This document shows, piece after piece, positions 4,601-59,555 of a stretch of 64,000 nucleotides of DNA. The stretch spans positions 14,157,088 to 14,221,087 of the forward strand of contig NC_069124.1 in assembly GCF_026914265.1 (NCBI RefSeq). The letters run 5' to 3'. Position numbers and translations under genes: made by a program. Below the pieces are notes generated by a model. That model saw only the letters and a program-made list of their open reading frames with translations, was not told where the DNA came from and made no database searches. The DNA is from Mya arenaria. Taxonomy: Eukaryota; Mollusca; Bivalvia; Myida; Myidae. Numbering within the stretch: position 1 is the first letter of the stretch; the number at the start of each line of letters is the position of its first letter.

Positions 4601-7600
4601 AAAACAGTGAATAATTGTGTTTTGCAAAATTGGTTATAATATCATAAATAATAGAAATGTGGACATAGGACACGAATGTCCCCACATTGCCGCGCTTGTC
4701 ACAAAAGTTGAAAAGTCCCAAAATGCAAGTTGTTGATCATAAAGGGGCCAAAACGTCAGTTTTACTAGAAAGTGCAGCAGGAAACGAAACGTCTGGTGCC
4801 CAAATTGTATCACCCTTTAACATTCCCATAAGGTTTCATGACTCTATGTGCATGTAATAACTTCTGGAGTTTTTAACTACTCAAGTCTAGAAATACCAAT
4901 GTTTGCTAACTCTGGTATTACTACGTGCAGCGTGAAATGAAACACCAGCTGCACAACTTTATCGACCCTTTAACATTCCATGACTCTAGGTTATATAGAT
5001 TCATGACCCTAGGTTATAATTATAGATTCATGACTCTAGGTTATATAGATTCATGACTCTAGGTTAAATAGATTCATGACTCTAGGTTATATAGATTCAT
5101 GACTCTAGGTTATATAGATTCATGGCTCTAGGTTATATAGATTCATGGCTCTAGGTTATATAGATTCATGGCTCTAGGTCATATAGATTCATGGCTCTAG
5201 GTCATATAGATTCATGGCTCTAGGTCATATAGATTCATGACTCTAGGTTATATAGATTCATGACTCTAGGTCATATAGATTCATGACTCTAGGTTATATA
5301 GATTCATGACTCTAGGTTATATAGATTCATGGCTCTAGGTTATATAGATTCATGGCTCTAGGTTATATAGATTCATGACTCTAGGTTATATAGATTCATG
5401 ACTCTAGGTTATATAGATTCATGACTCTAGGTTATATAGATTCATGACTCTAGGTTATATAGATTCATGACTCTAGGTTAAATAGATTCATGACTCTAGG
5501 TTATATAGATTCATGACTGTAGGTTATATAGATTCATGACTCTAGGTTATATAGATTTCGAGTTTTGAGCGACTGAAGTCCTCTAATACAGATGTTTGCT
5601 AATTCAGAGGCCAATACTTTTCACAATTAATCACGCTGACTTATAACGAAATCCACAGTATACGAATATGGTTTGTTTTCCAAAACATTCGGGTCTATTG
5701 AAGAAATTAGTAAAATGATTCTTCGTCTTCTATAAGCCGGTGCAAAAGTCGTTGACGATGTTTCACTAACTCTCAACAGACTAAATACAAATGTATCTGT
5801 TACTCTGTGAGTATAAACTCACTATAAAGACACAATCCACCCAGACAAATTCCCCATTTGCATTTACCTATGTTGTATGCTGTTTCTGAGCAAAAGCAAG
5901 CTGTAAAGTGCAATTTTTTTTATTTACCAATTATTAACCCACACGCAATACATATGGCAAATTACGCAAGGCCGTTTCCTACTCCAGTGCCGTATTCCGT
6001 TCTGCCGTTCTGCTATCGTCACGACATAATAAGTATCATTGCACAATGTTAACTTTACTTCCTGGAACAATATAGTGCATAATTGAAATTACATTTAATT
6101 TGAAATCATGTGTCTTTTAAGTCACTGAACCAGTATTGTAATATAAGGGTTATACTGCGGTTTAATTAGGAATATCGTCCGACTCTCCTATATTATTTCC
6201 GAATTAAACAAGATCAACTTTAGACTATACAAAATACCGGATCAAAACGCAGTATTAATGGTCCTACAATACATATGGTAAATAACCTCATAACTTCAAT
6301 AGCTGAAAATCTCCATTATTTTTATTCAGTGCATATGGACACATTTAGATCGCTCTTTCAGCAACAACGACATGAAAAAAATAAGTATTTAAGACAATGT
6401 TTACTCAGATTACAGTATGGGGATTGACATATCCAAAGAGTGAAATACCATCCAAATGTATATTAATGAAATCGGAGATATGAATGTTAAACAATAAGTT
6501 TTGTTTTAGAAAATGTCCATAATCGCTTAGCATTTATCTTATTTAAATTTCTGGATATTCAGGGACGAATGCATGCTGCAGTACGCCCGGGCGTATAAAT
6601 TATTTTGGGGTCCCCCGAAATGGCAAATGCTTAAATCTCGTGATCATAAATAAAAAATATATAACTTAGGGGTGTCTATAGTACATGTAAAGTTTTACAT
6701 GTTAACGTTCCTCGTTACTAATGTTGGCGTTTAGAATGCTAGAAAATGGTTATTTCATGTCTGTATTCTCCACACAACAAATCCTGAGGAAGGGGAGACA
6801 CCACTACCGCTGCCAGCCCGTAAAATATATTAAGACGAAACTAAAGACCTCCCCCATGTCGTAAGCCATCTCATGTGTACTTGAACGCCTCTGATATTAT
6901 TATCTCTATTTACATGTCTTGTACTGGTTATTGATTTATTTTCCCTTGGTGCTAATGTTAGAGGAATGGTTAAAATAACTTGAAAAGTAACAACAATCAT
7001 GCGTGGCTTGACATATTTCCTATGCAACCGTGTTTGCATGCCTAAAAATGTGAGTACAGAAATACGGAAATCGTGACCAAAATGAAATTATATCAGCGGA
7101 GCTGACGACTAATTGGCTAGGGTCGCCCATGTCATCCCCTGTCTCACTGTTTGTTCATTGAATTAACTCAAATAAGTATGAGGTAAACAATTCATCATAT
7201 TTTGTTAATATAAATAAAGAAAATATTAATAATGAGTTTATTGGGGTTTTTTTTGTGAATGTAAGTAATATTAAAAAATAGATGTTTTATTCAATATGTC
7301 TAAAGCCTTTTATAAATCAAAGTAAGAGATATGTTTGGGATTCACATTTTCCCTGTAACAAAGCATCCTAAAATTAACCAGGAGTTAAAACGCATAGTAT
7401 TATGAAGTTAATGTTTAAAATAAGAATTATAGAACATAAAGAAATAGTACATTTTGAAATTTCAATGAGTTTCATTTTAATTATTTATGTTATCTCATTG
7501 AATACTGATTGCGATATTTTACTTAATCTTTCTTGACATTGTTTATACGAAGAATAATTCACCGGTAGTGAATTTGAAGGATACTTACATAACACGTAAT

Positions 7601-11882: not shown

Positions 11883-11967
11883 TCACATGGTACTAGCAGC
11901 GTTGATTGTATCATACTGATTATCTTGATCTGGAGAGGGTCGAGTAAGGTCCGTGTATGAGGCTTCT
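11883..11967 (-). other. ITAM-coding terminal exon of D1
   Basis: The exon begins after a TTTTTGTAG acceptor, in phase 2, and codes 27 residues to TGA at 11885-11883. Both tyrosines have an acidic residue at -3 and Leu or Ile at +3. The paralogous exon at 20057-20141 has changes only outside these positions. Confidence 0.75.
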
Positions 11968-14900
11968 CTACAAAAATGAACTCAAAAAGTCAGTAATTAT
12001 ATATAATGTCAAACATCCAGATATTGAGATATAGCGCATCACCACTTTTAAATTGATGTTATAAAATAAAATAAATGTACCGTTGAGTTTGCAACGGGTC
12101 CAACTTCATGTCTTCTGTGCCTGCAATAGATGGCAATAACCGGAATACACTTCTTGCAATTTTAGTGTAAAATTTAAAAATGCATATACATTTTAATTTA
12201 TAGTGTAAAAATGAGCATCCGAAATCATATACCTTTGGATGTTAACACATTCGCGCGTTTGCGAAAACATAAAAGCAGCAGAACCACTATGAGGATGAAC
12301 ACAGCTGAGCCAAGCACACTAGAAGTCACTGTAAGCGCCGTACTCACGGGTTTTTCTTCTGAATACAAACGGAATACAATGATAACAAGCATAAGCTTAT
12401 TGCACAGTCACGTGATTTACTGATAATTAAGTGTGGTGTCTAACTGAAATTATACTATTTGGCTTACCACTAGAACGAGTCGTAAACCATACTGATAGCG
12501 GGTTCGAGCTTCCAGCACTGTTGGTGGCAATTAGTTTAACAGCGTAAGATGTATCAGAATTTAGTTCAGAAAGGGTGTAGAACATGTACTGATCGTCAAC
12601 ATCTTCCGGTGTATACAAGATTGATGTTGTAATATCAGCCGTCAATAGTTCAAGAAGATATGTCGGTCTTTCCCCTCCGTCGTCACCTGACTGCCAAAAC
12701 AATATTGCACTGTTCGAAGTTACACTGTCGTTTAAACAAAGGAACTTAAGTGGCGTATCAGGCTTATCTGCAACAAGAACATGAGTCAAAAGTGTAAACG
12801 AGCAATCAATTTGTGTTTTAGCGTAAGGTGCATTGCATGCTGGATTATTTAGAAATATACTGATATATATTAAATTTCAAAGAATCAAATCAAATTATCA
12901 TCAAGCTTTCTAAATGATCAAAGAACCTTTGAATTTTGATATAATAACTTTGCAATAATTAATATAACTAACCTGTGACTGGTTTTATTACTGTGAAAAG
13001 TTGAATGTACGGTTCGCTGATGCCATTGCCAGCTTCCACTTTGTACATTCCATAGTCCTTCAAGCTCACATACGGTATAACTAAGCTGGTGTTTAGACCA
13101 CGGGTTGCAGTGATCTGCACACCATCCATAGATTCAATGCTTCTCCAACCATGGTCACATTGGTTCTTTTTATACCAGTGAAATGTCGGAGTAGGATTGG
13201 CTAAAACTCCTAGATGCAGCAATGCTCTTTGCGTTCGTCCAACGACATAGTTAACTGTAGTCGACAAAGGAAGAATCGGCCTCGGGGAATCTGAAATATT
13301 TTGTTTAAGGATTTATATATTTTCAGTTTTGTGATAGGATATAGGAAACCTCGATCGCTTGTTTCAAATGTAGCAATCATGAAGTCTCTAAGTGAACTTC
13401 CAAATGTTCACTGCATGGCATCAATGTTTAGTTTTACGTGTATGTCGAAATACTTTGAAATAACGCACCGGTACATGTTCATTAAAGTAAGGATAGTATA
13501 CCTTATTATTAAAGGAAAAAGCCAACAACAGTATAGATGGGAATAGAGAGCTTTTATTAACTTACTAACTATAGCTCCAAACTACATATATTTGCGCGCA
13601 TGTCAAATGATAATGACATATCGACTGTTATAAGCGCGCAAACAAAAGTATGCACATATAATTATACATACAGTAATTATATGCATGAAATGTTACAAAT
13701 AAACAATGCATGAAAGAAAGAACCTTGTTGATAAATGTAATATAGACAAACTGTTAAAAATCGGATGGCCCAAAAACGTTTCCATAAGTTTAGCAGAATT
13801 TTTTTTGACAGAAATACATTAAAACTCATCATCTGTTGCATTGTTTTTAAAATAGGTTATACTTATATTATATCTTATATTATGTCCGTGATGTTTTACA
13901 GAAGCAAGACATGTATAAAGCTCAAAGATTCCTTCTCATTCTGTCGTGATTATTTTTTTGTGCATAAGCATTTGCCTACTTTCGTGTATAATTGAAAATG
14001 CGGTAGTATGTTTATGATCAAAATTTGTTAAATTGAAAGAGTGTTTTACAATGGTGTGTTAACTGAATATTGTTTAAACCAAACAAAGTCAGAAACACAA
14101 ATATCCTCCATTGCTTTATCAAATGGTTGTAATGCAAGTTTTGGGACTGTTTTCTATTTTTCATAGAGAAGCTACCTAAATAAAGGAACCAAGTGCGTGA
14201 TAGATGTTACTATCGGTAATGAACCCAGTTGAGCTAGTTAAAGTGAGTGGTGTCCGCGATAATGACATAAATCACGCAGTTCATTAATTATATATTTGCC
14301 ATAAGTTCATTAATTCTTTCGAGAACAGTTGACGCAAACAATACCTAGATAAACACGTTCCAATTTATTAAAATGCAATGAATCGCGATTCAAACATATC
14401 CGAATATGTTGCGTTCATCGGAAAATATTGGCAATTGCCGAAAGTCCGTTCATTTAAGGAACGAAAGTTAAGGGGTACATATATTCACTTTAAAGTAGCT
14501 ATCTGAATATTCCTTTATTTGATTTATACTTTAAAATGTGAATCAATTTTACTTACATTCAACTCCAATGTAGATTCTTTGTGAAGATATAACGTGTATT
14601 CCACCAACATTGCTGGCTGTGCAGTAGAGTGATATTCCGTTATCAAAAATACCCACTCTACCTTTAACCGTTGAAATGGTAGTAACTATGGTTCCGTTTT
14701 TCTCAGTTGTATGTGTTACTTCAGCAATGACGTCCTTGTCATCGTCTAAGAGATCATGGGTTTTAGAATCGTTTCGCCAAGAAATCACAGCCAGTGGTCT
14801 TGCTGGTGTTGTTCGACATTGCGCCTTATAGGTCGAGTTTTCATTAAGGGTAATATGTTGTGATGATGGCGGTTCAAAGGTCACAGAAGCAACAGGGACT

Positions 14901-15569
14901 GCGAAATTTAACATCAGCTTTACTAGCAGTACAGTATGTTCTTATATGCCGAAGGATCGTTACATTAGTGTTTAATTACCTGGCGGTTAATAAAAAATAG
15001 TTTATGGTCTAAACACTTTCGTATTTACGTTTATTCATTTTAAGGATCGCTATTACTACTCACCAGCAACATAAATTTCCGAAGTGTTGCTCTTATAATA
15101 AGATCCTCCGATTCTCATTTCACAGTCCCATCTCATTCCATGATATTCCTTCTTGACATGTTTCAGAACAACGCTAAACATGTTGTTGCCAAGACAGGTT
15201 GCATTGTAAAGGGTAGTGTTTGCCAGCGATTGGTATACTATGCATCCTGTGTCCAAGAGTCTCAAAATCCCTACCGAACCTCCATCTATTTTCCAAGTAC
15301 AAATTGTGACATTTTCGATTCCGTCGTATGAACAAATAAGTTGAAGATCGTTCCCAGCAATGACTCCTGCTCTTGGTGAAGGCTTTAATGTCGGAAAAAA
15401 TTGTCCTGTAACCGATTTGACTAATTTATTATGATATACGAATTAATACAATTTATACTAATTTCATATTAATACATGTATATCTAGATACAGAAGACGA
15501 AATACACTTACCATTGCATCGCATCAAAATTACAAACGTCACAAATCCTAAGTAAACGGATGTGTACAT
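11883..15569 (-). CDS. Ig-Ig-Ig-FN3 transmembrane receptor with ITAM-type tail (D1)
   Basis: Eight exons join in one open frame of 537 codons: 15512-15569 (signal peptide, MYTSVYLGFVTFVILMRCNG), 15064-15405, 14557-14898 and 12973-13290 (three Ig-like domains, with LICSYDG and YCTAS cysteine contexts), 12468-12767 (FN3, ending AGSSNPLSVWF), 12233-12358 (transmembrane), 12081-12120 and 11883-11967 (cytoplasmic). Junctions are GT-AG; phases are 1 up to the tail, then 2. The transmembrane segment runs GSAVFILIVVLLLLCF, followed by basic RKR. The tail holds EASYTDL and DNQYDTI with ten residues between the first Leu and the second Tyr. This fits the ITAM pattern D/E-x2-Y-x2-L/I, x6-12, Y-x2-L/I, which in vertebrate receptors recruits tandem-SH2 kinases such as Syk. 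Predicted role: cell-surface recognition and tyrosine-kinase signalling. The ligand is unknown. The domain order resembles adhesion or immune receptors; I assign no named orthologue. Confidence 0.8.
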
Positions 15570-18990: not shown

Positions 18991-20056
18991 TTTAGGATTG
19001 TTGGGATAAGAGTGAGGTTTGTGCACCTAAACTGGTTTAAACCCCAGTAAATTTACATTTTACTGACCGTCCCAAGGCGGTAACTAACAATCCTTGATTA
19101 ACATACCTATTTTTGTTATATTTAGTATGAATGCACTGTGCTGTTTGTGGAGTTTTGTGCTGTTCTTCCATGTTTCTTGCTTGTGATTTTTTGTTTTTGT
19201 GTTCTATGTCTATGGCGTTTACCCAGTGCCATTAAACCGGGTTTATGTTTAAACCTTTTGCTACTGAGCTTGTTTCTGTAGTTTTTCAACATAAGTATTC
19301 CTTTCTATGAAAAAGATGAAGACACCATGCATTATTTCAATATGCAGGAAACAGCTGCAGACACTAAAACTGTTAAAGACAGGGCTAACTAGGTTATGGA
19401 TTTATATGTCGGCCCTCGTCTGAGAGTGCTCATAACATTGCAATAAGTCGTGTTGTGTGGAACGAATGAGGACAAAAAATACAGATGTTCAGCCTGGAAT
19501 GAAAACAAGCAGCTAAGTTCTCAATAACAGTGTTGCAATAACAAATTGTCTAGCAGAATGCACATTAAATACGTCCGTGGATTGACGGCATTGCAAACAT
19601 TCAGCCAAAGTGAAGCCTTTGAAAATATCTTACTCAGTACTTAACTTACACTATTTTATATTGGAACTACATCTTTTAAGCACAGGGTATAATTAAATCA
19701 ACCCAACTCTTATTTATATACAGTGTGATATTAACAAATGATACCTCATGCGACTTCACTGATGACATTCACATTATAAATTTGTAACATTAAGTGATAT
19801 TACGATATTAAATTGTTTTATTAGAAAACAACAATTTGTGTATTTAAATTATATAAAAAAAACAATAAAGCCTTCAAATAAATCTGAAAACAGTCGCACT
19901 TTTGTTTACACTTTTTCCTTAATCGTTTATTGATAATATTCTTTGTTCTTCAGGAGTGTATTATTAACGGTGAACTAACAAACAGCTTCTGTAGATACAT
20001 GTCGTCTGATTCCACAGTATGGCATATACTCCGGTCATGCTGTAAACTGACCGTCA

Positions 20057-20786
20057 TCACATGGTGGTAGCAGCGTTGATTGAATCATACTGATTATCTT
20101 GCCCAGGAGCGGGTCGAGTAAGGTCCGTGTATGAGGCTTCTCTACAAAATGAACTCAAAAAGTCAGTACTTATATATAATGTCAAACATCCAGATATTCA
20201 GATATAGCGCATAACCACTTTTAAATAATGTTATAAAATAAAAGAAATGTACCGTTGAGTTTGCAACGGGTCCAACTTCAAGTCTTCTGTGCCTGCAATA
20301 GATGGCAATAGCCGGAATACACTGCTGGCAATTTTTAGTGCAAAATGTAGAAATGTTACAAAATTTTATTTATAGCGTAAAAATTAGCACTATTTCTTCT
20401 TATTCCTTTCTTAATAAGGAAGAGAAAAGTCATATACCTTTGGATGGTAAAACTTTCGCGCATTGTTTGCGAAAACATAGAAGCAGCAGAACCACTATGA
20501 GGATGAGCACAACTGAGCCAAGGACACTAGTAGTCACCGTCAGCGCAGTACACACGGGTCTGTCTTCTGAATACAAACGGAATACAATGATAACAAGCAT
20601 AAACTTATTGCACAGTCACGTGATTTACTGATAATTAAGTGTGGTGTCTAACTGAAATTATACTATTTGGCTTACCACTAGAACGAGTCGTAAACCATAC
20701 TGATAGCGGGTTCGAGCTTCCAGCACTGTTGGACGCAATTAGTTTAACAGCGTAAGATGTATCAGCATTTAGTTCAGAAAGGGTGT
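20057..20786 (-). pseudogene. 3' half of a D1 receptor paralogue, truncated in its FN3 exon
   Basis: Terminal exon 20057-20141, 40-bp exon 20253-20292, transmembrane exon 20438-20566 and partial FN3 exon 20676-20786 match D1 in order, phase and splice sites. All frames are open. The transmembrane exon is 129 bp, one codon longer than in D1. The tail keeps EASYTDL and QYDSI, so the ITAM geometry is preserved. Homology stops inside the FN3 exon, exactly where the palindromic element at 20787-21125 begins. No upstream Ig exons lie on its 5' side before unrelated EGF exons. It is either a truncated copy or the tail of a gene reorganised by insertions. Confidence 0.7.
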
Positions 20787-21125
20787 AAATATGGACGAGG
20801 GCATCAAACATGATTTTATACAACACAACAGAGCAAGGAATGCGTTACACGTACATGTGCGGGTATGTCGGGGAAGGTCGTCCTGTACATTTATTGTTCA
20901 ACTGTTTTATTTTCCACCGCTGTAGTGTTGTAACTGGACGTACGGAATGGGATGCACCCACAAGTGCTGGGCATATGAGATACTGTTTTCAGATATTGCT
21001 ACAGGGCGCCTCGATCTCATATGCCCAGCACTTGTGGGTGCATCCCATTCCGCACATGTACGTGTAACGCATTCCTTGCTCTGTTGTGTTGTATAAAATC
21101 ATGTTTGATGCCCTCGTCCATATTT
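20787..21125. mobile_element. Foldback element with perfect 112-nt arms and an asymmetric insert
   Basis: The right arm, 21014-21125, is by eye the exact reverse complement of 20787-20862 joined to 20946-20981. The left arm alone carries 83 extra bases (20863-20945) bounded by a CGG repeat. The central spacer is about 32 bases. It interrupts an FN3 exon. The perfect arms suggest recent formation or conversion between arms. Confidence 0.75.
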
Positions 21126-23390: not shown

Positions 23391-23446
23391 TAAACTGATA
23401 GATGCGGCTGTGTTTGGATGATGTGTTTAAGGTATGTCCATAATAA

Positions 23447-24351
23447 TGTGACCGGACCGATAACTGTATATCGCCGTTTTATCTTCATTTCATGCGGAAC
23501 ACCTTGGTTTCTTGATTATCGGCTTGGCATGTTTTCGAGGAGACAATTTCATTGGTCGACATATATGTTACAGCGATTGTGATTGGTTCAGGCATGGTTT
23601 GATTCAGTCAGTCACGAAGTTTTGGAGCGAAAACACTGCGTTGTTAGAAACCTGTTTCTACAGAGTTGTTCGCTTTTGCATAAGGTTTTGCAGGTATGCA
23701 TTCTTGGTTTAATCTTGCAATTGATTGTATTCTCGTAGTGAACTCACTGGAATCGTTTGTTAAACGCCATTTAGTTATTCTGTCTTTATCATGTTTGTCC
23801 GGGATAAAGTGTTGTCCGAAAAGCAGTATACAAACCTCCTGTCTTAACCTAACCTTCAATAGGTTCACTACTTTTATATTCTGTACAGTAACATTCTGTT
23901 CACTTACCTTTTAGAACATAACTTAACCAGCACCGGAAGCGTGAGATGTGAGGGTTTTCAGTACCACATATTGGTAAGTTTCATGTGTCATTGTCATGTT
24001 TCTGTATATGTCTAAATGTTGGTATTTGCCATAATCGTGTATGTCATTGTATGTGACACAACCTCGTTTGTTTATCTGTTTGTCGTTTATAATGTATGCT
24101 TTGCTTGTGCTTTGCTTGTGCATTCAATTATATGTATATATGTCTCGAAATATTGTTTATAGACAATATTTGGCTGCTAGCCTATGATAGTTATAATAGC
24201 GATTATTGATATATTGAACATGCTATTTAACAGTGTTTTATATCTTTATATGTTGTTACTTACGTGTATATTATGAATTATATATTTCCAGATTACATCT
24301 CTACATTTATTGAGTCTTGTTCTTCCTATTCGTACAATACCGTACCGTTAT
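23447..24351 (+). repeat. 5' LTR
   Basis: Begins TGTGACCGGACC and ends near ACCGTTA. About 905 bases, almost identical to 32817-33721. The seen differences are at the seventh base, near 23707 and near 23886. Confidence 0.9.
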
Positions 24352-24354
24352 ATC

Positions 24355-24365
24355 TGGCGCCCAAC
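24355..24365 (+). promoter_or_regulatory. Primer-binding site, tRNA-Lys type
   Basis: TGGCGCCCAAC starts four bases after the 5' LTR. It is complementary to the 3' end of animal tRNA-Lys, as in the Lys1,2-primed retroviruses; identity to that primer stops after about 11 bases. Confidence 0.7.
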
Positions 24366-26880
24366 CTAACCGAACCTGGACAGACCCATAAGGAGAGGGT
24401 TTCGTGCTTGTAGCTGAGAAGCCTAGAGACGAAGACGTCTTTCCTACCACGGGGGAGAGCAGTGTGTGACAACTGGTGTCACAGTCAAGACTCTTGTTGC
24501 TATTACAAGTGGATCTTATGAGTTTATTCTTTGCTTGGTGTAGCACCGTGCGTGACAAGCATTGTCACAATTAAAACTCTTGTTTAAGTGAGAGATAGTG
24601 CATTTTTGCTCTCAAGGAGTAAATTTTTTGGCTCAGTGCATTACGAGCTTGTGACATAACTGGAGGACATGGATTGTTCCCAGCTGATTTAAGTAATTTT
24701 TACCTTTTAACTGAGAAAAACATTCGAAGGATCTGGACTTACCTGAAGGACGTTTGGCCATCAAGGATTCATCGCATATCAGGAGGACACATGTGAGGTT
24801 CCAGTGACCATAAACACTGTGCACAGATTAATATCAGTGCTAAATTTACAGTTATTTGTGTTTCTGACATTGTGCTAGCGGTCTTCATCATTCACTTGTG
24901 TTAGTTGTTTTCAAGTCATTCATTTCTACAGAGGGCGTGAGTACAAAGATATATATTTTTTGTATACATTAAAATTGCAGTGACTTGCTTTCCTTTATTT
25001 ATTATTTCCCTATGAGAATTAAGACATAGCTGTTACTGCCATTTTCTTGTGTACATATATCTAGAGAGCTATTATATTGATGAGAGAGATCTCACTGCAT
25101 GTTTAACAATAACATCTCTTAACAGTCTTGGTCATACAAAAAATCTATCATTTCTGATAACTTATTTCTTGGTGATTGGAAATATTCTTGATTCTCTTAT
25201 TAAACTGCTTTTTGGATACACTTTATCTAGGATTCTCATCAAATATTAAATATTTATTGTGTTTAACAAATTGTTTCAGTTGAGAGTACTTTCATTATTC
25301 TAATCTGTGTCTGATTTACAAACTATTTTGAAAGTTTGCACTGTTTTACTATTATTGATTTGGCAGTATAAACACACCTAAGGAATTTCATTCATAAAGT
25401 TCTTTGTATTGGTTTTTCCCAGTCTAGGTATTTTACATTGCGTGATTGACACACGTGGTAATATTGTCTTCCTATTGGCTATTCTGCACTGACGTATGAA
25501 TGCGTAATTAGCGGGCTGAATATTATCTGAAATTCTATTGGTTGTTTCGACTCGGAGGTTACGTGACGTCATTCGTTACTAAGCGACCTTGCCCTAATAG
25601 ATTTGACAGCGCACTATTTGACATTTTGGACGGAATTGAAAATTAATTTGACAACTCTGCTTCTGACACCGTAGTAGTTTAATATTTAGTTGTTAATTGT
25701 AGCTTATAGTTTATAAACCACCACTAGGTATCGTGTAGATAAATTTATTTAGCGACTTGTAGTTCATTAGCGATTTTATTGCAATTAAACTTAGCGTAAT
25801 TTGCGATTTGCTTACTTTCGGTTTACATTGACATTTCAGTGATAGAATTAAATCGTTTATTCTTTGGATATACAATTCATTTATTTCAGGTTTTGTGAAT
25901 TCATTACATAGCTTATTAATAGTTACAGTTATTGATTGATACTACAGATAATTTGATTTATTTTGAACGAAATAATATTTATTTATTCGACTTTGTGTAT
26001 TGAATAGAAAATAAGATAGAAATTGCATTGTATTGACATTTGACAGTTGTATTTATTGATGTAAATTTCTTGGATTATACAATAGTGCTTTATTTTCAGG
26101 TTATTTGATATTGATTTTGGTTTTGATTTGAAACACTTATATCTGCATTTGGTTGAATTTACTTTATGAAACTACTTTGATGCTTGTTGTTTACATGAAC
26201 ACATAGTTTATACAGTGAATATTTATTTAATTTTACTGTCTGAAATAATTTATTTGAGATAGTTCGTCATTACTTTGTGTCATATTTGAAATTATTTTGG
26301 TGGATAACTGGATAGTACTAAGTCGTCTTTTATAATTACTTCAATTAATTTTTGAAACTTTGTTTATTTATTTATTTATTTTTGCTCGACATTACATATT
26401 TATATTTACACATTATACTTTGATACTTTACATACAAATTATTCGAGACCGTTGGAATATTTTGATTTGGACTTCTGAAGCTGTTGTGAATTTTGTGATT
26501 GTTGATTAGGCACATTTGTACTATAGTTAGAGAACATCTACGCTGATATTGATATACATTTTTTGAATATCTTACTTGTGTATTGATATATATATATATA
26601 GTGCACTACATGTAACGTTTTTGTTGATTAGTGGAATTAAATTGTGTTATCTTGGAATATTCCTGGTATATTCGTGATGATTTAAGTTGATGACACTTGT
26701 GAATTAAGTTGTTCAGTATCCAACACTTGACACAGTGATTAGTGTGTTGTGAGTGCAAACCATTTGGCGTTTGAGTGAATTCGTTCATCATGATAGTGAT
26801 ATAAAATGCATACTAGCTGTGAATTGTGAGAGGATATAACATTTGTATTGTGGCTGAATTTGATTGAATTATTCATAGTG
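24366..26880 (+). other. 2.5-kb leader of the retrotransposon
   Basis: An AT-rich stretch between the primer-binding site and gag with no long ORF in either strand. It contains TGACGTCA (CRE-like) near 25564 and short AT repeats. It is much longer than usual Ty3/Gypsy leaders; splicing or internal initiation may be needed to reach gag. Confidence 0.6.
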
Positions 26881-28029
26881 ATGGCAACTCAAAGTGATAA
26901 AGCACTCCCTAAAGCGGAAGATGAGGAGACTAAACATAATGAGGCTTATGGAGGCGGACTCACTCATGAAGAACTTCAGATGGTTCAGTTCCTTCGGAGT
27001 ATGAAATTAACAGCAGACATAACTGATCCTCATAAAGCGACAAAATTGATAGAGGCTATAGGTGGCTGTAAAGATGAACCAGTTCAAATTAAGAAAGCAG
27101 AAACTTTACCATCCACTTCCTATCCGAAGTTCAGCATCTTTTATGGTGAAGATGGAAAAGGAGAGGCTACATGGGACAGTTTCAAGTATGAAATAGAATG
27201 TGTGTTGAATGCCAGAAGCTACACTGATGATCAGATCATGTTTGGTATTCGGCGTTCAGCCAAAGGAGCAGCTGCTGACAAGATAAGGAGACTAGGCCAA
27301 GGAGTAACAGTAATGAAGGTTTTGGAGAAATTGGATAGCTCCTATGGGATCGTAGATACTAGAGAGAGTATTATGAAGAGATTTTATACGTGCGATCAAA
27401 AAGCTGCCGAGTCAGTAGAAGGATATGCATCCAGACTAGAGGATTTATTTGACAAGGCAGTTGAACTTGGTGGATTCAGAACATCAGATACACAAGTACT
27501 GAAAGAGGTGTTGCATTCTGGACTCAGGAAAGATCTTAAACAAATGTCCACATATCAGTGTGATAAGATTAAAGGATATGATCAATTTAGAAGAGAATTG
27601 AGGAAGATTGAAGCTGATATGAAAAGTTCTAGCCCGGAGAGAAAACCTTGCAGACCTGTGGTGAAAGAAGAAGACAGTGAGACAGTCAAGCTCTTAAGAC
27701 AGCTAACAGAAAGAATGGATCGAATAGAAAAGGGACAGCGTCAACAACAACAGGGACAACAACAACCTCATCAGACACACCAGCAACCACAACATCAAGA
27801 TTATGTACCGAGAGGGAGCTACAGGGGAAGATGGCGTGGGGGACAAGGTCGAGGAATGAGAGGGCGTGGCTACAGAGAGATGGACCCTGGATTCGCCAGT
27901 GAACGAACTTGTTTCATCTGCAATAGGAAAGGCCACATGCAGCGTGATTGCCCCACAATACTAGCGCAGTTCGTTTGTTCTGTATGCAAAGACAAGGGAC
28001 ACCTGAAGAAGGACTGCCCAAACTTATAA
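26881..28029 (+). CDS. gag: Gag polyprotein
   Basis: The open frame gives 382 residues from ATG at 26881 (MATQSDK). An upstream in-frame ATG at 26848 gives 11 more residues but starts with a less likely hydrophobic stretch. The centre is capsid-like, followed by a Gln-rich and then Arg/Gly-rich region. The end has two CCHC zinc knuckles (CFICNRKGHMQRDC and CSVCKDKGHLKKDC) that should bind element RNA. The frame appears intact. A slippery heptamer overlaps its last sense codons. Confidence 0.88.
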   Translation: MATQSDKALPKAEDEETKHNEAYGGGLTHEELQMVQFLRSMKLTADITDPHKATKLIEAIGGCKDEPVQIKKAETLPSTSYPKFSIFYGEDGKGEATWDSFKYEIECVLNARSYTDDQIMFGIRRSAKGAAADKIRRLGQGVTVMKVLEKLDSSYGIVDTRESIMKRFYTCDQKAAESVEGYASRLEDLFDKAVELGGFRTSDTQVLKEVLHSGLRKDLKQMSTYQCDKIKGYDQFRRELRKIEADMKSSSPERKPCRPVVKEEDSETVKLLRQLTERMDRIEKGQRQQQQGQQQPHQTHQQPQHQDYVPRGSYRGRWRGGQGRGMRGRGYREMDPGFASERTCFICNRKGHMQRDCPTILAQFVCSVCKDKGHLKKDCPNL

Positions 28030-28060
28030 GTGCCCGAGTAGGGGGATCGAACCCGAGCAC
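28017..28060 (+). promoter_or_regulatory. Probable -1 ribosomal frameshift signal between gag and pol
   Basis: CCCAAAC at 28017-28023 fits X XXY YYZ in the gag frame (C CCA AAC), two codons before the gag stop. A six-base spacer follows. Then GTGC (28030-28033) can pair with GCAC (28057-28060), with an inner GGG/CCC stem around 28043-28054. The pol frame is -1 relative to gag, as required. Confidence 0.65.
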
Positions 28061-31000
28061 GTTGTTGTCTGATCCCAAGCTTATTGGAAATACAAATGAA
28101 GTAAATATCACCATAGCTAACCAACCAACCACTGCATTACTGGATACTGGGAGTGTTGTTAGTATTATATCAGAGTCTTTTTACAATGATCATCTTTCTT
28201 TTACTAAAATTCAACCAGTCGGTGACATTTTAAATATTGAATGTGCGGATGGAGAGAATCTTCCATACAAGGGATACATTGAAACTGAAATTACAACTGA
28301 TGATGGACTCCCTAATTCTACACCACTTCCGTGCTTGCTACTTGTTACACCTGATACAAAATATTCAGCCAAAACACCAGTCATTTTAGGAACAAACATA
28401 CTTCAAGAATTTATGAAAGATTGTTCAAATCAACATGGTGAAAGATTTTTACAAACTGCTTCATTACATGCACCATGGTACCTCAGCTTTCGAACAATTA
28501 CGTTAAGAGAAAGAGAACTAAAACGAAGTAAGAACCGTATAGCTATTGTAAAATGTGCCGCAACTCAGAAGATTGTCTTAAATCCAAACCAGAACATTGA
28601 TGCAATCGGGTACACGGATCATGAGTTGAATTATCTTCCAACAACTGCAATCCTACAAGAATGTGATGATTGTACGGCACCATCTTTAGATGTAACACCT
28701 ACAGTTATACAGTTTACTGGAGAGAAGAGAAAGGAAGTTAGAGTTACCTTGTCGAATATAACAACAAATCCTGTCGTCATCCAGCCTCATGCAATACTTT
28801 GTGAGATTCAGCCAGTTACGGTTGCAGAAGATGTATTTGATAAAATACATGAAGATAGATCACCTATATTGGATAACTTGAACATTGATGAAGCAAACAT
28901 TTTAGATCAAGATCAAAAACAGGAATTAATTGAATTATTAGATAAACATAAGGACATTTTTTCAACTGGAGATACTGATATTGGCATTTGTAACAGAATA
29001 AAACATAGGATTGATTTGTTAACAGACATTCCATTTAAGCAGAGACACCGCCGCATTCCACCATCTATGATTGAAGAGGTGCGGAACCATATTGAGCAGC
29101 TGTTAGCAGCCGGTGTCATACGACCATCGAAATCTCCATACACATCGAATGTGGTTCTTGTCCGTAAGAAGAACGGGAAGTTACGTCTTTGTGTTGACTA
29201 CAGACAGCTCAACAGTATTACAATCAAAGACTCATATGCTCTACCAAGAATGGAAGAAATCTTTGATTGTCTTCATGGAGCTAAGTTCTTTACCACAATG
29301 GACATGAAGTCAGGCTACCACCAGATTGAAGTGGAGGAGTCCCATAAGGAGCGCACCGCATTTACTGTTGGTAATATGGGCTTCTATGAGTACCACAAGA
29401 TGCCATTTGATTTAACAAATAGCCCAGCTACCTACCAAAGAATAATGCAGGAGATACTAGGAGACTTGAACATGCGCATTTGTTTAATTTACTTGGACGA
29501 CGTGATAATCTTCAGCGACTCCTATGAGCAACACTTGGAGCGGTTAGACATTATTCTCACCAAACTACATGAAGCAAGAATGAAATTAGCTCCTGAGAAA
29601 TGTCATTTTTTTAAGCCCAGTGTCAATTTTCTAGGCCATATTGTTAGTGGTAATGGAGTAGAAACAGATCCTGCCAAGATAGAGAAAGTTAAAGGTTGGC
29701 CAACCCATCTAATTCTGATGAATTGCGCTCGTTTATAGCTTTCGCTGGTTACTATCGTCGTTTTATAAAACATTTCAGCGACATAGTTCGGCCATTAAAT
29801 GAGCTTCTACCTCCAACTACTACTAAGAAGGGGTCAAAGGCAACAAAACCCGAGTGGAAGTGGACAGACAAGGAACAGGCTGTGTTCGACCATTTGAAGG
29901 AATTGCTATCTTCTCCACCAATACTGGCTTACCCGAATTTTAACATGCCATTCGAACTTCACACAGATGCGTCTGGAAAAGCATTAGGTGCAGTGCTGTA
30001 CCAAGTGCAAGATGGCCAAAAACGGGTAATTTCCTATGCCAGTAGGTCCTTAAACAAATCCGAACGGAACTATAGCGCCTTCAAATTGGAATTCTTGGCT
30101 CTTAAGTGGGCGGTGACTGAGAAGTTTAGTGACTACCTCGCCACGTTCCACTTCACTGTCTTGACAGATAATAACCCTCTTACTTATGTGTTAACTACTG
30201 CCAAGCTTGATGCAACTGGCCAACGATGGGCCTCTGCTCTAGGAGAGTATTCATTTGACATCAAGTATAGAGCTGGTTTGAAGAACCAAGATGCAGATGG
30301 AATGAGCCGATATCCTTATGAGAACATCACAGATACAGACAACACAGAAAGAGTAAAGATCAGTGATCCAACTGTAAAGGCTATATGCAATTTGATTTCA
30401 GTACCTTTTGTTGACACTCTTCCAATGAGCATGAATATTCTAGAGGCAACTGAAGACCTTGGCCAACCACTTGCACAGAAAGACATGCGTGAAATCAGAA
30501 GAGCCCAACGGAGTGATCCTCTCATTGAAAAATGGAGAATTGCTGTTATTGACAAGAGGTTGCCAAGAAAGCTTCTACATGGGAACGATCTGAATATGAA
30601 GAAACAGTTCAAGAACTTGAGCATCAAAAGAGGGATCCTGTTCAGAAATGTTCATGACAACGGTGACAATGACATTGAACAACTTGTGATTCCTGAGTCA
30701 TTCAGACATGAGATACTGACGGGCATTCATGATCTTTCTGGTCATCCAGGGCAAGAAAGAACAATGCGTCTGTTAAGGGAGAGGTTCTACTGGCCTGGAA
30801 TGACATCAGATGTGAAAGACTGGATAAGTAAGTGCGATAGATGTATTGGAAGGCAGGGGAAGATTGACCGTGCACCGCTCGTGAATGTTAATACATCATA
30901 TCCACTTGAACTTCTCTGTATTGACTACCTTTCTCTAGAGCCATGCAAGGGTAACATCAGCAACATTCTGATAGTCACTGATCATTATACCAAGTTTGCC

Positions 31001-32411
31001 AAAGCTATCCCTACCAGAAACCAAACCGCCAAGACTACAGCAGAAGCACTCTACAATGAGTTCTTGGTCAATTTCGGGATTCCTACGAGGCTACATTCGG
31101 ACCAGGGAGCCAACTTCGAAAGCCAGATTATTTCGGAACTGTGCCGCATTACAGGTATGAAGAAAAGCCATACCACACCTTACCACCCACAAGGAAATGC
31201 AGGGCCAGAGCGATTTAATCGAACACTTCTTGGAAAGCTTGGAACTCTCGAAGAAGATCAAAAGGCTGATTGGAAACGATACATCAGTAGTCTAGTGTAT
31301 GCCTATAATTGTACACCGCATGAAGCAACCCGAGTGTCCCCATTTGAGTTGCTCTTCGGAAGAAGGCCTATGTTACCAATCGATGTAATGTTTGAGCAGG
31401 CAAGAGAAGAGCCGGTCAGTAAAACTACAGATGAATACATGGAAGATCTCCAAGAAAGGATCGTGAAGGCACACGAGATTGTGAACCATCATACACAAAG
31501 GTCGAAAATGAAACAAAAGAAATACTACGACCGCAAGACAAAACCTGTTAGGATTAATGTTGGGGACAGAGTACTTGTAAAGAAGATGGCTTTTGATGGT
31601 AAGCATAAAATCGCCGACCGGTTCGAAGAAACCTTACACAGTACTTGACCAACCAAGAAGGGACATTCCGGTTTTTAAGGTAAGAGCTGAGGGCTCTGAG
31701 CGTGAAAGGACACTTCATCGGAATCATTTACTCTTGATTGAGCATCATGAGAATGACGATGTGTTGGGTGAAGTTGTTGCAGAACAGAAAGATAAAGTAA
31801 GGGATGCATCCGAAAGGAAAGAACTAGTGAGTGAATTCACTGAAGGTGATAGTGAGACTGACGAAGAAGGTGATGGCTATACAGGACCTGTATGCCACCA
31901 TGGGGACGCCCATGAACCAGACAGTAACGTCAGCCATGAGAATGACAGCTTAGCTACGGGTAGAGACGAAGCTGTAGATGATGTAAGTATCATTAGTGAG
32001 GTTGAGGATGTTAATGTTGACACTCTATTTTCAGATGATACGCATACAAGCGGAATAGAAGTCCCGGAAGATCCAGTTACACAATCAAAAGATCCAGAAG
32101 AAGTGATCCATACAGATAATTCTGCAGAGGTGCTACCGACAGTAGACGAACCCGAAGACCAGTTAGCTGCCGAAGCTATTGGAGATGCTGTAGGTTCACC
32201 TGTTGTAGACAGACTAAGACCAGTACCTCAACCACGACGTTCAGAACGGATCCGCAAACCACCTACAAGATTTGACGAGTTCCACATGTATAGCAACCAA
32301 CCAGTGGACCGCAGATTGCAGGCATTGGACACACTTATGCAGTCTGGCATTCTGAAAGATGTGGATAGTGAGATAGCGTATCAACTAATAGGTGCAATTA
32401 TGAATAAATAA
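28030..32411 (+). pseudogene. pol: Pol polyprotein (protease, RT, RNase H, integrase), two single-base breaks
   Basis: In order: aspartic protease with LLDTGS at about 28137-28154; reverse transcriptase with the YLDD box at about 29490-29501; RNase H with TDAS near 29967 and TDN near 30166; integrase with an HHCC zinc finger at about 30727-30845 and catalytic Asp-Asp-Glu near 30918, 31097 and 31208. The reading frame moves by one base near 29700-29715 (after RT) and again near 31625-31640 (in the integrase C-terminal region), both beside short homopolymers. A further 250 or so residues are acidic, then basic (PRRSERIRKPPTRF), to TAA at 32411. As written it cannot make a full polyprotein. With such young LTRs the breaks may be recent or sequencing errors. 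Confidence 0.88.
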
Positions 32412-32816
32412 GTTGCAATGCTGCACTTTTTATTGTTTTAGTTTGATCTGTGTAATCATTGATTTTTTTTATGCATTTTAATAGTGTTTTGTTAAAACTA
32501 TGTGGGCATAGTTTTTGTCACAGGGGGAGGAACTAGGACTGTTTTAAATTTTTGATTTTTTGGAAAAGCATTTTTTTTTTTTTTCACAAATCGCTAATAA
32601 ATTGCTTGTGTATGTAGTTAAGAAACTTAAGTAGTCACATGTTAGAGAAAGCTATGTACTGTCGAAAGTTTATGTAGAATTACATGTATACTATACATAT
32701 AAGTATACGTCAGTATAAGCAGATTGTCAGACCAGATACTGGACTACTTTTTTTTTGTTTTTGTTTGTTTTTACGTGACGTAATGACGGGACGTCATTTC
32801 ACATAGCGGGGGAGTA
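32412..32816 (+). other. 3' untranslated region and polypurine tract
   Basis: Holds a T run near 32569-32584, CRE-like TGACGTAA and GACGTCAT near 32776-32799, and a purine tract, AGCGGGGGAG, at about 32805-32814, just before the 3' LTR. No env-like ORF. Confidence 0.65.
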
Positions 32817-33721
32817 TGTGACCTGACCGATAACTGTATATCGCCGTTTTATCTTCATTTCATGCGGAACACCTTGGTTTCTTGATTATCGGCTTGGCAT
32901 GTTTTCGAGGAGACAATTTCATTGGTCGACATATATGTTACAGCGATTGTGATTGGTTCAGGCATGGTTTGATTCAGTCAGTCACGAAGTTTTGGAGCGA
33001 AAACACTGCGTTGTTAGAAACCTGTTTCTACAGAGTTGTTCGCTTTTGCATAAGGTTTTGCAGGTATGCATTCATGGTTTAATCTTGCAATTGATTGTAT
33101 TCTCGTAGTGAACTCACTGGAATCGTTTGTTAAACGCCATTTAGTTATTCTGTCTTTATCATGTTTGTCCGGGATAAAGTGTTGTCCGAAAAGCAGTATA
33201 CAAACCTCCTGTCTTAACCTAACCTTCAATAGGTTCACTACTTTTATATTCTGTACACTAAACATTCTGTTCACTTACCTTTTAGAACATAACTTAACCA
33301 GCACCGGAAGCGTGAGATGTGAGGGTTTTCAGTACCACATATTGGTAAGTTTCATGTGTCATTGTCATGTTTCTGTATATGTCTAAATGTTGGTATTTGC
33401 CATAATCGTGTATGTCATTGTATGTGACACAACCTCGTTTGTTTATCTGTTTGTCGTTTATAATGTATGCTTTGCTTGTGCTTTGCTTGTGCATTCAATT
33501 ATATGTATATATGTCTCGAAATATTGTTTATAGACAATATTTGGCTGCTAGCCTATGATAGTTATAATAGCGATTATTGATATATTGAACATGCTATTTA
33601 ACAGTGTTTTATATCTTTATATGTTGTTACTTACGTGTATATTATGAATTATATATTTCCAGATTACATCTCTACATTTATTGAGTCTTGTTCTTCCTAT
33701 TCGTACAATACCGTACCGTTA
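32817..33721 (+). repeat. 3' LTR
   Basis: Begins TGTGACCTGACC. Matches the 5' LTR over its whole length apart from about four positions. Confidence 0.9.
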
Positions 33722-33727
33722 TAATAA

Positions 33728-47574: not shown

Positions 47575-48080
47575 ACTGTGGAAAAGCTACTAAGATTAAG
47601 GCCTTATACACACCATGAAAGACATACTCACCATTGACCAACCTTGACATTAGGTGAAGAGGTGGCCACGAACATGCGCAATCGTGACCTAAATTTAATG
47701 ACGTCCCGATCTTACCCGTTTATCATACGACGTCACAATAAGGCGGAAAAGATTTAAGCGCTTCAAAACACTGGTTAACGTTAAATTGAAACACCTATGG
47801 CAACACTTCATTTAACAAATCATGAAATAACACTTTTCAACAGGTTTTTGTGGCCTGCTGACACAAAAATAACCAGATAAACAAATTTTAATTTATATTC
47901 AAATACGATTATTCACGATCCGAACATATCCGAACATATTGCGTTCATCTGAAAATATTCACAATTTGCCAAAAGTTCGTTGATTTAAGGAATGGAAGTG
48001 TAAATGTTAACACCTATTTGAATAATACTTAAATAACACATTATTTGGTTTTGTATTTTAAAATGTGAATCATGATTTAC
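47575..48080. other. Non-coding stretch upstream of the small ORFs
   Basis: No Ig3 or FN3 exon of the receptor copy at 48081-48932 was found here, so that copy ends at or near this junction. Confidence 0.45.
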
Positions 48081-48932
48081 ATTCAACTTCAATGTAGATT
48101 CTTTGTGAAGATATAACGTATACTCCATCAACATTGCTTGCCGTGCAATAAATTGATATCCTGTTATCAAAAATGCTCACATAACCTTTAACGCTTGACA
48201 TGGTACTAACCATGGTTTCGTTTGTCTCTGTTGTTTGCGTAATTTCAGCAGTAATGTCGTTGTCATCGCTTAAGAGATCAGGAGTTTTAGAATCGTTTCG
48301 CCATGAATTCACAGCCAGTGGTCTTGCTGGTGTTGTTCGACATTGCGCCTTATAGGTCGAGTTTTCATTAAGGGTAATATGTTGTGATGACGGCGGTTCA
48401 AAGGTCACAGAAACAACAGGGACTGCAAATTTAACATCTGCTTTTACAAGCGTATTGTTTATATGCAATAAAGCCCGAATAGTCGTTACATCAGTGTTTA
48501 ATGACCTGGCAGCGAGGATTACTTATTTTATGGCCTTAACAGTTTCGTTTTTTACGTTTATAAATTTTAAGGTTCGCTTTTCTTACTCACCAGCAACATA
48601 AATGTCCGGAGAGTTGCTCTTAACATAAGATTTTCCGATTCTCATTTCACAGCTCCATCTCATTCCATGACTTTCCTTCTTGATATCTTTCAGATTAACT
48701 CTGAACGTGTTGTTGCCAAGACGGGTTGCATTGTAAAGGGTAGTGTTTGCCAGTGATAGGCATACTGTGCATCCTGTGTCTAGGAGTCTCATAATCCCTA
48801 CCAAAAAGTTATCTATATCCCAACTACAGTTTGTAACATTTTCGGGTCCATCATATGCACACATAAATTCAAGATCATTCCCAGCAACGACTTCTGCTCT
48901 TGGTGAAGGCTCTAATGTCGGAACAAATTGTC
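48081..48932 (-). pseudogene. N-terminal Ig exons of a third receptor copy
   Basis: Exons 48591-48932 and 48081-48422 are each 342 bp like their D1 counterparts, share splice phases and are fully open. The second ends at a weaker donor, GTAAAT, against GTAAGT in D1. Exon 1 is missing: similarity to D1 intron 1 stops near 48960, where a dispersed repeat starts. The third Ig, FN3, membrane and tail exons are absent nearby. It may be a fragment, or in principle the head of a gene whose tail is the piece at 20057-20786, although 27 kb of other same-strand exons lie between. Confidence 0.7.
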
Positions 48933-48960
48933 CTGTAACCGTTTGGACTAAATTCGTATG

Positions 48961-51080
48961 TTAGGCCTTTTTTTAACAAATTGGTTAACGGATCCGCCGC
49001 CCAATTATTATTTTTTTTTAAATATTTAAAAAAGGAAATCAGTTGGGGTTTTTTGCACACATGAAATGATGTAAAACCTGTTGCCTTTTCCATTGCAACA
49101 TAAAATGCAGTTTTAAAAATTGTTTTCAAAATGGCGGCCTCAATTGTCAGAGCTGAGATCATACAAAAAATAAATTCTCATTTTCAACATACCATCTGCA
49201 TTTAAACTTTTTTTTTTTAAATAACTGACATCAAAGCTGATGTTTGTATCAATGGTAACAAATCACATATAAACCATAGTAATTGATAAAATGTATTGCC
49301 CTGTGTTTGTCCCAGGGGGCATAAATTGTTAAACAAACTATATGGAGACTACTATTCAAGTAATCAACATCTGGGGTAACTTAAATTTTGTTAAAGCTGC
49401 AGAGATCTTAACTCCAAAGAATTAATAACTGAATATAAAGTCATTTTTATTATTTACATTTCCTTATTCCATTTAATAAACTAGAGATGTTTGTCCAACA
49501 TTATGCACCCCCCCCCCCCCCCCCCCCGAGCGCCATGTTGTCAGGATTATATGGACAATTGAATGAAATATGCATGGACCAAAATGACAGCTCATTTGTC
49601 ACTGACATTGGATGCCGTTGAGGCAGTTTTAAGATTATGACCATTCAAAGTGTGAGGATAGAGGGTGTTATGACCATGACCTTTGACTCTATGACCTCAA
49701 AATCCATAAAAGTCATCAGCTGGTCACCAAAAACCTAAATGTCAAGTTTGAGGGCCATGGGTGCAGGCATTGACAAGTTATCACACAGACAAGCTTTTTT
49801 TCGTTCGAGGTCACTGTGACCTTGACCTTTGACCCGATGACCCCTAAAATCGAAAGGGGTCATGTACAGGTCAGACGCAACTCCGAGTCAAGTTTGAGGG
49901 CCATGGGTGCAGGTATTGTTGAGTTATCAATCGAAACATTTCGCATTCAATGTCACTGTGAACTTTGACCCGATGACTCCTAAAATCAATAGGAGTAATC
50001 TTCTGGTCAGGCCCAACTTCCATGTCAAGTTTGATGATCATAGGTTCAGGCATTGTTGAGATATCACTGGGAGAAGATTTGTTAACTTTTGCGTTAAAGG
50101 TTACTGGACCTTGACCTTCGCCCGATGACCCCCAAAGTCAAGAGGGGTCATCTACTGGTCAGACCCAGCCTTCATGTCAAGTCTGATGACTATAGGTCCA
50201 GAAATTGTCGAGTTTGCTTTCAAGGTCACTCTGACCTTGACCTTTGATCCCTTAAATCAATAGGGGTCATCTACTGGTCAGGCCCAACCTCTAAGTCAAG
50301 TTTGAGGGCCATGGGTGCAGGCATTGTCGAGTTATCACTTGGACAACGTTTTATCAGTCAAGGTCACTGAGACCTTGACCTTTGGCCCGATGACCCCTAA
50401 AATTAATAGGGGCCATTTACTGGTCAGGCCCAACCTCCAAGTTAAGTTTGAGGGTCATGGGTGCAGGCATTGTTGAGTTATCACTCGGACAACCTTTTAT
50501 CATCCAATGTCACTGTGACCTTGACCTTTGGCCCAATGGCCCTTAAAATCAATAGGGGCCATCTACTGGTCAGGCCCAACCTCAAAGTCATATTTGATGA
50601 CCATACGTCCAGGAATTGTTGAGTTATCACTCGGACAAGCTTTGGTCTACCGACGGACCGACCGACCGACCTACCGACCGACATGTGCAAAGCAATATAC
50701 CCCTCTTCTTCGATGGGGGGGGGGGGGGGGGAGCATAATAATTGAGTCAGTGAAATTTGTTACATTGTGCTTTTTCTGTTGAGAAGAAGTAGTGCCCAAC
50801 AATAAGGAGACACAGGCATATTCCTAGTAAGGTTGATATGTGGAAATAGTGTTGCAAATAGGAAAACTCTTGCAGTCAGGATGTGCTCAAAAAACATCAA
50901 CAAAAAGTGACAGTAAAACCAAATGTTTGTAATAATATTGACTTAAAATGTGACACTATTATAAGGTTCGTACATTCAGCTTCCAAGTTCAAGAAAACTT
51001 TTGAAAAACAGGAAAACCATTTTTCTAAAGACTGTAAGTTTTTTAGTTGCAAACATATCTTTATGCAACCTTTTGATCAT
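48961..51080 (-). mobile_element. Dispersed repeat, copy 2, with internal tandem array
   Basis: The flanks, about 49200-49440 and 50780-50910, are reverse complements of parts of 18545-18985. The interior, about 49640-50640, is an added tandem array. A C run of about 21 lies at 49507 and a G run of 15 near 50716. The right limit is approximate. Confidence 0.5.
49640..50640. repeat. Tandem array of about 130-145 bp units rich in TGACCTTTGACC
   Basis: About seven degenerate units share GACCTTGACCTTTGACCCGA, then CTGGTCAGGCCCAACCT, GTTTGAGGGCCATGGGTGCA and GAGTTATCACT. The first motif is a run of TGACCT half-sites with 0 and 1 base spacing. Confidence 0.8.

Positions 51081-59153: not shown

Positions 59154-59555
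<402 letters not shown>

Follow-up and report, generated by a model that had tools for sequence, protein, structure and literature searches.

A single-chain Ig/FN3 receptor gene of Mya arenaria with a canonical ITAM in its terminal exon, and its relation to a large receptor family in the same genome

Single-chain Ig receptors with their own immunoreceptor tyrosine-based activation motif (ITAM) are known from vertebrates, where CEACAM3 and Fc gamma RIIA, to which no orthology is suggested in what follows, are examples without FN3, and in Drosophila the ectodomain of the receptor Draper is formed by EGF repeats. For the oyster Crassostrea gigas, Ig superfamily (IgSF) receptors with an ITAM or an immunoreceptor tyrosine-based inhibitory motif (ITIM) have been reviewed as acting in bacterial recognition and ERK signalling, and one of them, CgIgIT2, is ITAM-bearing by the review's account, yet is called inhibitory in the title cited there (PMC11999971). 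ITAM/ITIM motifs are also described for Alr of Hydractinia and ITIM/hemITAM motifs for a receptor family of Botryllus (PMC12065747), and the ITAM of Draper is described as binding the SH2 kinase Shark and driving engulfment (PMC10366216). Because oyster, Hydractinia and Botryllus cases have already been reported, the single-chain Ig receptor with an ITAM is a known kind. Here we describe LOC128227292, a gene located in a 64,000-nucleotide stretch of DNA, called the window hereafter (contig C3:14157088-14221087, chromosome 3, of a 1.216-Gb, 18-contig assembly). The original prediction, made from the sequence alone, had supposed a probable mollusc as the source, which is correct, the DNA being from Mya arenaria, and had considered a single-chain Ig/FN3 receptor with an ITAM in such an animal to be notable, a view that, as far as rarity outside the vertebrates is meant, the published oyster, Hydractinia, Botryllus and Draper precedents, as given in the cited texts, do not sustain. 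We consider it probable that LOC128227292 encodes an activating, single-chain type I receptor of the ITAM-Syk kind, probably immune or phagocytic, which would represent a divergent branch of its receptor family.

Compared by description only, the oyster IgSF receptors (CgIgIT2 and the 2020 receptor with 'BCR-like signaling') resemble LOC128227292 in being bivalve proteins with an Ig ectodomain, one transmembrane (TM) segment and a tail with tyrosine motifs, but they have five Ig domains and FN3 goes unmentioned in what the review says of them (PMC11999971). Alr of the cnidarian Hydractinia and FcoR of the tunicate Botryllus, again compared by description only, are likewise invertebrate receptor families with ITAM, hemITAM or ITIM motifs, encoded at histocompatibility loci, but the role described for them is allorecognition. 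Draper, as presented in the cited text, is an invertebrate ITAM receptor with an SH2 kinase, but its partner is Shark and not Syk.

The eight exons of LOC128227292 lie on the minus strand between positions 15569 and 11884 of the window and splice to an open protein of 536 amino acids. All seven introns are bounded by GT..AG, junctions 1-6 being in phase 1 and junction 7 in phase 2, and the spliced product is 100% identical over 100% of its length to NCBI LOC128227292 ('uncharacterized protein', Mya arenaria), which confirms the open eight-exon gene that had been assembled by hand. Exon 1 (15512..15569) matches LOC128227292 and contains the start codon and a likely signal peptide (MYTSVYLGFVTFVILMRCN), with a helix at residues 3-18 in the fold model. 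Exon 2 (15064..15405) encodes Ig domain 1, modelled as beta strands, exon 3 (14557..14898) Ig domain 2 (Pfam ig and C2-set_2) and exon 4 (12973..13290) Ig domain 3 (Pfam Ig_3, 45.8 bits), each colinear with an Ig domain of the Mya relative P0009. Exon 5 (12468..12767) encodes the FN3 domain, exon 6 (12233..12358) the TM helix, recognized by hydropathy and as a fold-model helix at 470-488, together with the start of the tail, exon 7 (12081..12120) is a short tail exon that is retained in a partial copy at 20253-20292, and exon 8 (11884..11967), which again matches LOC128227292, is the terminal exon with the ITAM and the stop codon.

On the 536-residue product, the Pfam families Ig_3, I-set, ig, Ig_2 and C2-set_2 exceeded their cut-offs, whereas fn3 reached 19.9 bits versus a cut-off of 25; the FN3 assignment of exon 5 is supported by colinear FN3 domains in Mya relatives, by FN3 matches in the genome and by the alignment-based fold model. 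This model (mean 63.2, domain blocks mostly 63-85) backs the order Ig-Ig-Ig-FN3-TM at the level of fold only, and a fold search returned generic Ig/FN3 chains. A structure prediction from the single sequence (pLDDT 36.7) was set aside. The layout Ig-Ig-Ig-FN3-TM-ITAM on one chain, as originally proposed, is upheld by Pfam, colinear relatives, fold model and hydropathy. From hydropathy and the fold-model helices, the product is predicted to be a single-pass membrane protein with a signal peptide and with the tail motif on the inner side; no charged residue is present in the 19-residue core of the TM segment, which would fit a receptor working without an adaptor chain. A second Mya annotation, MAR_022616 (P0002), of 295 amino acids, is without part of Ig2, Ig3 and FN3 and retains TM and tail. 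An apparent internal donor in the Ig2 exon at about 14662 (minus strand), read from the sequence, links the remaining piece of Ig2 straight to the TM exon, and MAR_022616 may be a short isoform with an unchanged tail.

Most textbook ITAMs have a spacer of 6-8 residues. The tail of LOC128227292 extends 51 residues past the hydropathy TM segment, or 53 by the cut used for shuffling, and holds two tyrosines in all, one in each of two YxxL/I sites and each with an acidic residue at -3. The motif EASYTDL-TRPSPDQ-DNQYDTI (11904..11966, minus strand) consists of YTDL, 10 residues and YDTI and conforms to the definition Yxx[LI]-x(6-12)-Yxx[LI]; the spacer of 10 is longer than the textbook one and lies within the consensus of 6-12. 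Shuffling the 53-residue tail 300,000 times gave the pattern Yxx[LI]x6-12Yxx[LI] with a frequency of 0.0013 and its x6-8 form with 0.0006, and when an acidic residue was demanded at both -3 positions (spacer 9-15 as coded) the frequency was 0.000023, so the claim of a canonical ITAM with acidic -3 residues and a spacer of 10 stood up to both reading and shuffling. The acidic pattern occurs twice in the six-frame translation of the window, in LOC128227292 and in a partial copy at 20078-20140, versus no occurrence in 20 block shuffles. As the motif is rare in shuffled tails and in block shuffles of the window, an origin by chance was judged unlikely. No tail site fits the ITIM consensus [SIVLT]xYxx[ILV], and its two matches in the protein both lie in the ectodomain.

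Two features lay beyond the original prediction, namely a set of broken near copies and a large Mya receptor family. When the genome was searched with the complete protein, weaker hits also appeared, the majority of them on contig C5, and a composite query from a locus on contig C10 gave 13 protein matches, 11 from Mya and 2 from the snail Gigantopelta. P0009, a Mya protein of 732 amino acids named nephrin-like, aligns colinearly with LOC128227292 at identities of 29% for Ig1 (8.5e-10, E-values here referring to a small local set), 30% for Ig2, 26% for the last Ig and 27% for FN3. P0009 and its C5 relatives share with LOC128227292 the order Ig1, Ig2 ... last Ig, FN3, TM and ITAM tail, whereas overall identity to P0009 is 25%, P0009 possesses extra middle Ig domains, and its tail motif YEELx8YDEL has a spacer of 8 in an internal exon, as against 10 in a terminal exon. 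Homologous Ig domains and a membrane-proximal FN3 in a common order place LOC128227292 in a large Ig/FN3 receptor family of Mya, of which it forms, as judged from these alignments, a divergent branch on chromosome 3. Among eight tails examined for the pattern Yxx[LI]x6-12Yxx[LI], six (P0001, P0004, P0008, P0009, P0013 and P0014) contain it at least once, P0014 with two such pairs, whereas P0007 and P0016 lack it, and its frequency in shuffles of the six positive tails was 0.002-0.017. Outside this test were P0002 (same gene as P0001), P0003 and P0015 (not from Mya), P0005, P0006, P0010 and P0011 (no clear TM by hydropathy) and P0012 (TM present, tail without any Yxx[LIVM]). A scan of 12 loci for the acidic type of ITAM gave no convincing tail beyond the group on chromosome 3, C5 tails becoming visible only with a loosened pattern, and searches of the open-licence literature of PubMed Central brought up no description of a large Mya family with ITAM tails.

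With the FN3 exon of P0013 as query (150 of 159 candidates scored), at least 101 matches were found in the genome, 83 of them on C5, and these include the FN3 of LOC128227292 (8e-10). With the tail exon of P0009 the matches numbered 78 (E up to 10), 58 on C5; when these were read, 33 had Yxx[LI]..Yxx[LI], a further 31 had V at a +3 position and 14 had neither, so that a paired Yxx[LIV] is present in 64 of 78, individual exons of this count not all necessarily sitting in working genes. As some copies are identical and the assembly seems to hold haplotype duplicates, true loci should be fewer than matches. None of the 78 has a stop in the 28 columns over which they align, and among the 72 that are distinct in DNA the first tyrosine is kept in 68, the second in 69 and both in 65, Leu at +3 of the second tyrosine being present in 69 and encoded by five Leu codons; nonsynonymous difference is 0.14 in the four motif columns versus 0.29 in the other 24. 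Within 10 kb downstream of an FN3 match on the same strand lie 41 of the 78 tail exons (35 distinct FN3s), 34 of these 41 with paired Yxx[LIV], compared with none in the control on the wrong side or strand; with a limit of 20 kb the numbers were 43 and 2. In some tail exons one tyrosine is replaced (L083-L087, L091, L094, L095 and L112, on C7, C6 and C5), the second by N in the C7 copies or the first by H or F, and such exons could belong to non-signalling or single-tyrosine partners.

The explanation that competes best is that LOC128227292 is an adhesion or guidance receptor of the contactin or nephrin type, the tail motifs acting mainly in sorting or endocytosis (YxxPhi) or in the docking of other SH2 proteins, and not as an ITAM for Syk. 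Both YTDL and YDTI do match the looser YxxPhi motif, several relatives bear NCBI names such as contactin-5-like, nephrin-like and hemicentin-1-like, and most of the solved structures matched belong to Ig/FN3 proteins that are adhesion molecules, growth-factor receptors or muscle proteins (contactins, IgLON5, FGFR, titin), with antibodies also in the fold list. The NCBI names are automatic, however, and sorting requires no pair of sites, whereas shuffled tails seldom show the paired spacing and most of the 72 diverged exons preserve both tyrosines and the +3 Leu at constant spacing; we therefore regard this explanation as unlikely.

In a genome search for SH2 domains (PF00017; 150 of 152 candidates scored), at least 71 matches were obtained, and 39 stretches, covering part of them, were compared with the tandem SH2 of SYK. 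One stretch on contig C13 has the N-SH2 of SYK/ZAP-70 as best match (1e-17, next family 2e-8), the adjoining 5 kb encode the second half of the N-SH2 and interdomain A (SYK, 3e-20), and the start of a C-SH2 matched ZAP-70 at 5e-10 and SYK at 3e-7 in a 34-residue query covering its first part only. The three pieces follow in order within about 3 kb, with Syk/ZAP-70 as best solved matches for each. Both Syk and Shark kinases are on record from invertebrates, and ankyrin repeats are described between the SH2 domains of Shark (PMC10253181, PMC9486129); by eye, no ankyrin-like stretch was noticed between the C13 pieces. These matches indicate that the Mya genome holds exons of a Syk-type tandem SH2, for which the original prediction had advised a search in the same genome. 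Presence of Syk alone is no proof of ITAM docking, because the Syk of schistosomes is described as lacking the ITAM-binding sequence (PMC2820527). Further SH2 matches were Csk-like, SHP-2-like, PLC-gamma-like, STAT-like and Abl-like, these names being our own reading of the sequences. Some SH2 matches are found twice, about 1-1.5 Mb from each other and with scores that are the same or almost so (C13:11.04-11.23 and 12.07-12.25 Mb; C2:68.70 and 70.21 Mb; C4:45.03 and 46.39 Mb); as they look like haplotype copies left in the assembly, family counts would be inflated.

The SHP-2-like pair of SH2 domains (L118, L119; named from sequence) would suit a receptor with an inhibitory or mixed role, to which SHP-2 would be recruited by the tail tyrosines. 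ITIM-like sites such as SVYDEL in several C5 relatives point the same way, as does the title of the review's reference 93, in which oyster CgIgIT2 is termed inhibitory (PMC11999971). Neither tail tyrosine of LOC128227292, however, matches the ITIM consensus, because the -2 residues are A and N, and for this receptor the inhibitory explanation appears quite improbable.

Within the window, the near copies of the gene (copy A) are fragments. Copy B (19943..20796, minus strand; 87% DNA identity to A) comprises the last part of FN3, the TM segment and exons 7-8 with EASYTDLTRPAPGQDNQYDSI; FN3 did not align in its 5' portion and no Ig exon was found adjoining. It retains both ITAM tyrosines, and exon 8 differs from that of A by four amino-acid changes that leave the tyrosines and the +3 and -3 residues unaltered. 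Copy C (47859..48963, minus strand; 82% DNA identity) has the Ig1 and Ig2 exons only, with open frames and splice sites and without a tail, and no exon 1 homology was found upstream; neither B nor C is a whole gene in place. The terminal exon as query gave three genome matches, A, B and copy D (C3:13775892), all on chromosome 3, so that both tyrosines are kept in two of three tail exons of this subtype and the second is lost in one (D). Copy D, 390 kb from A, matches all six parts compared, but its second tyrosine is changed to F and a frameshift is present in Ig1. At C3:13.25, 13.77, 13.80 and 13.81 Mb there are additional copies, partial or degenerate, several chromosome-3 copies contain stops, and no intact copy other than A was found in this group by a whole-protein search that scored 81 of 418 candidates and could have missed others. 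The fragmentary B and C, the broken D and the other partial copies suggest that the group evolves by duplication and loss. Between A and C, dN/dS is 0.86 over Ig1 and Ig2 (Ig1 1.27, to which no significance is attached; Ig2 0.58), and between A and B it is 0.51 over TM and tail; these values are not decisive about selection on the gene. That LOC128227292 is itself a remnant of this decaying group, with an ITAM of no present use, would agree with the fragments, the lesions of D, the stops and the weak constraint that such ratios allow, but the 536-residue frame and all splice sites are intact, two annotations model the gene, and A and B keep the tyrosines with their +3 and -3 residues despite four changes in exon 8 (so few could miss these positions by chance), which makes it very improbable.

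Some patches of the copies are nearly identical, in copies that are otherwise 82-87% identical: intron 5 (12359-12467) has 108 of 109 bases in common between A and B, and few differences are seen between A and C at about 14780-14898, the first part of Ig2. These patches could be traces of gene conversion.

We return to the activating ITAM receptor, which is favoured because of the identical NCBI model, the rare motif, the colinearity with P0009, the recurrence of paired tails and the Syk-type SH2 exons. The three Ig domains and the membrane-proximal FN3 are predicted to bind ligand at the cell surface; once ligand clusters the receptor, a Src-family kinase would phosphorylate both tyrosines of the tail, the clam Syk would bind the resulting phosphotyrosine pair through its tandem SH2, and this docking would start an activating response, which would probably be phagocytosis or the activation of haemocytes for uptake or killing. 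Surface location, phosphorylation, docking, cell type and immune role are all argued here from sequence. Several observations weigh against this reading. A search with residues 446-536, which detects only relatives with exact 5-residue words in common and of 0.55-1.75 times the length, matched only the two Mya annotations of LOC128227292, hence no orthologue beyond Mya, and for the whole protein the homologues beyond Mya came to one weak match to insect Dscam2 among the best 7998 candidates by common words that were scored. The tail is absent from the 78 matches to the family tail-exon type GxDNPGxNAAxTYEELSMxxxTSVYDALS (spacer x8) and, given its spacing, exon position and -3 residues, cannot be shown to be homologous to the tail exons on C5, whose -3 residues in the 72 distinct copies are mostly A and T, acidic ones not being typical. 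The tail-exon search favours motif-bearing copies because the query itself carries the motif. Of 16 FN3 stretches of about 9 kb at most, seven contain a tail exon and none was seen in nine, two of which, L017 and L024, are one locus. The tails of P0007, P0012 and P0016 are without a canonical tyrosine pair. Finally, close copies on chromosome 3 are decaying, as seen in D and in L013, a degenerate copy with a broken remnant of the tail exon.

More broadly, we tentatively suggest, giving it a little less than an even chance, that the Mya germline encodes several dozen Ig/FN3 receptors with ITAMs, single or tandem, alongside ITIM-like variants, most of them clustered on one chromosome, all able to feed one Syk and evolving by birth and death, as a counterpart of the paired receptors of the leukocyte receptor complex; LOC128227292 would then, as part of the same suggestion, be an outlying branch on another chromosome with a canonical ITAM in a different tail exon. 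By itself, LOC128227292 adds one more case of a known kind of receptor, and the surrounding family matters more. If most of the 64 tail exons with paired tyrosines are part of expressed receptors, the clam would have a large ITAM repertoire in which the logic of Syk signalling operates on unrelated ectodomains, and the evolution of diversity, of activation thresholds and of paired activation and inhibition without adaptive immunity would become testable. Mya arenaria carries a transmissible cancer, and such a repertoire, if true, could bear on the recognition of foreign clam cells.

Apart from the receptor sequences, the window contains a Ty3/Gypsy-type long terminal repeat (LTR) element between copies B and C (23446-33723), with two 908-base LTRs of 99.56% identity and open frames with zinc knuckle, reverse transcriptase, RNase H and integrase domains, which on these features is a recent insertion. 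An intact single frame at 61799-63289 (plus strand) encodes a RING finger and a weak B-box-like match in a TRIM-like layout. Tandem arrays are located at 42676-43936 (21 x 60 bases), 60088-61160 (32 x 34 bases), 4979-5557 (25 x 23 bases) and 59157-59554 (a GATA array).

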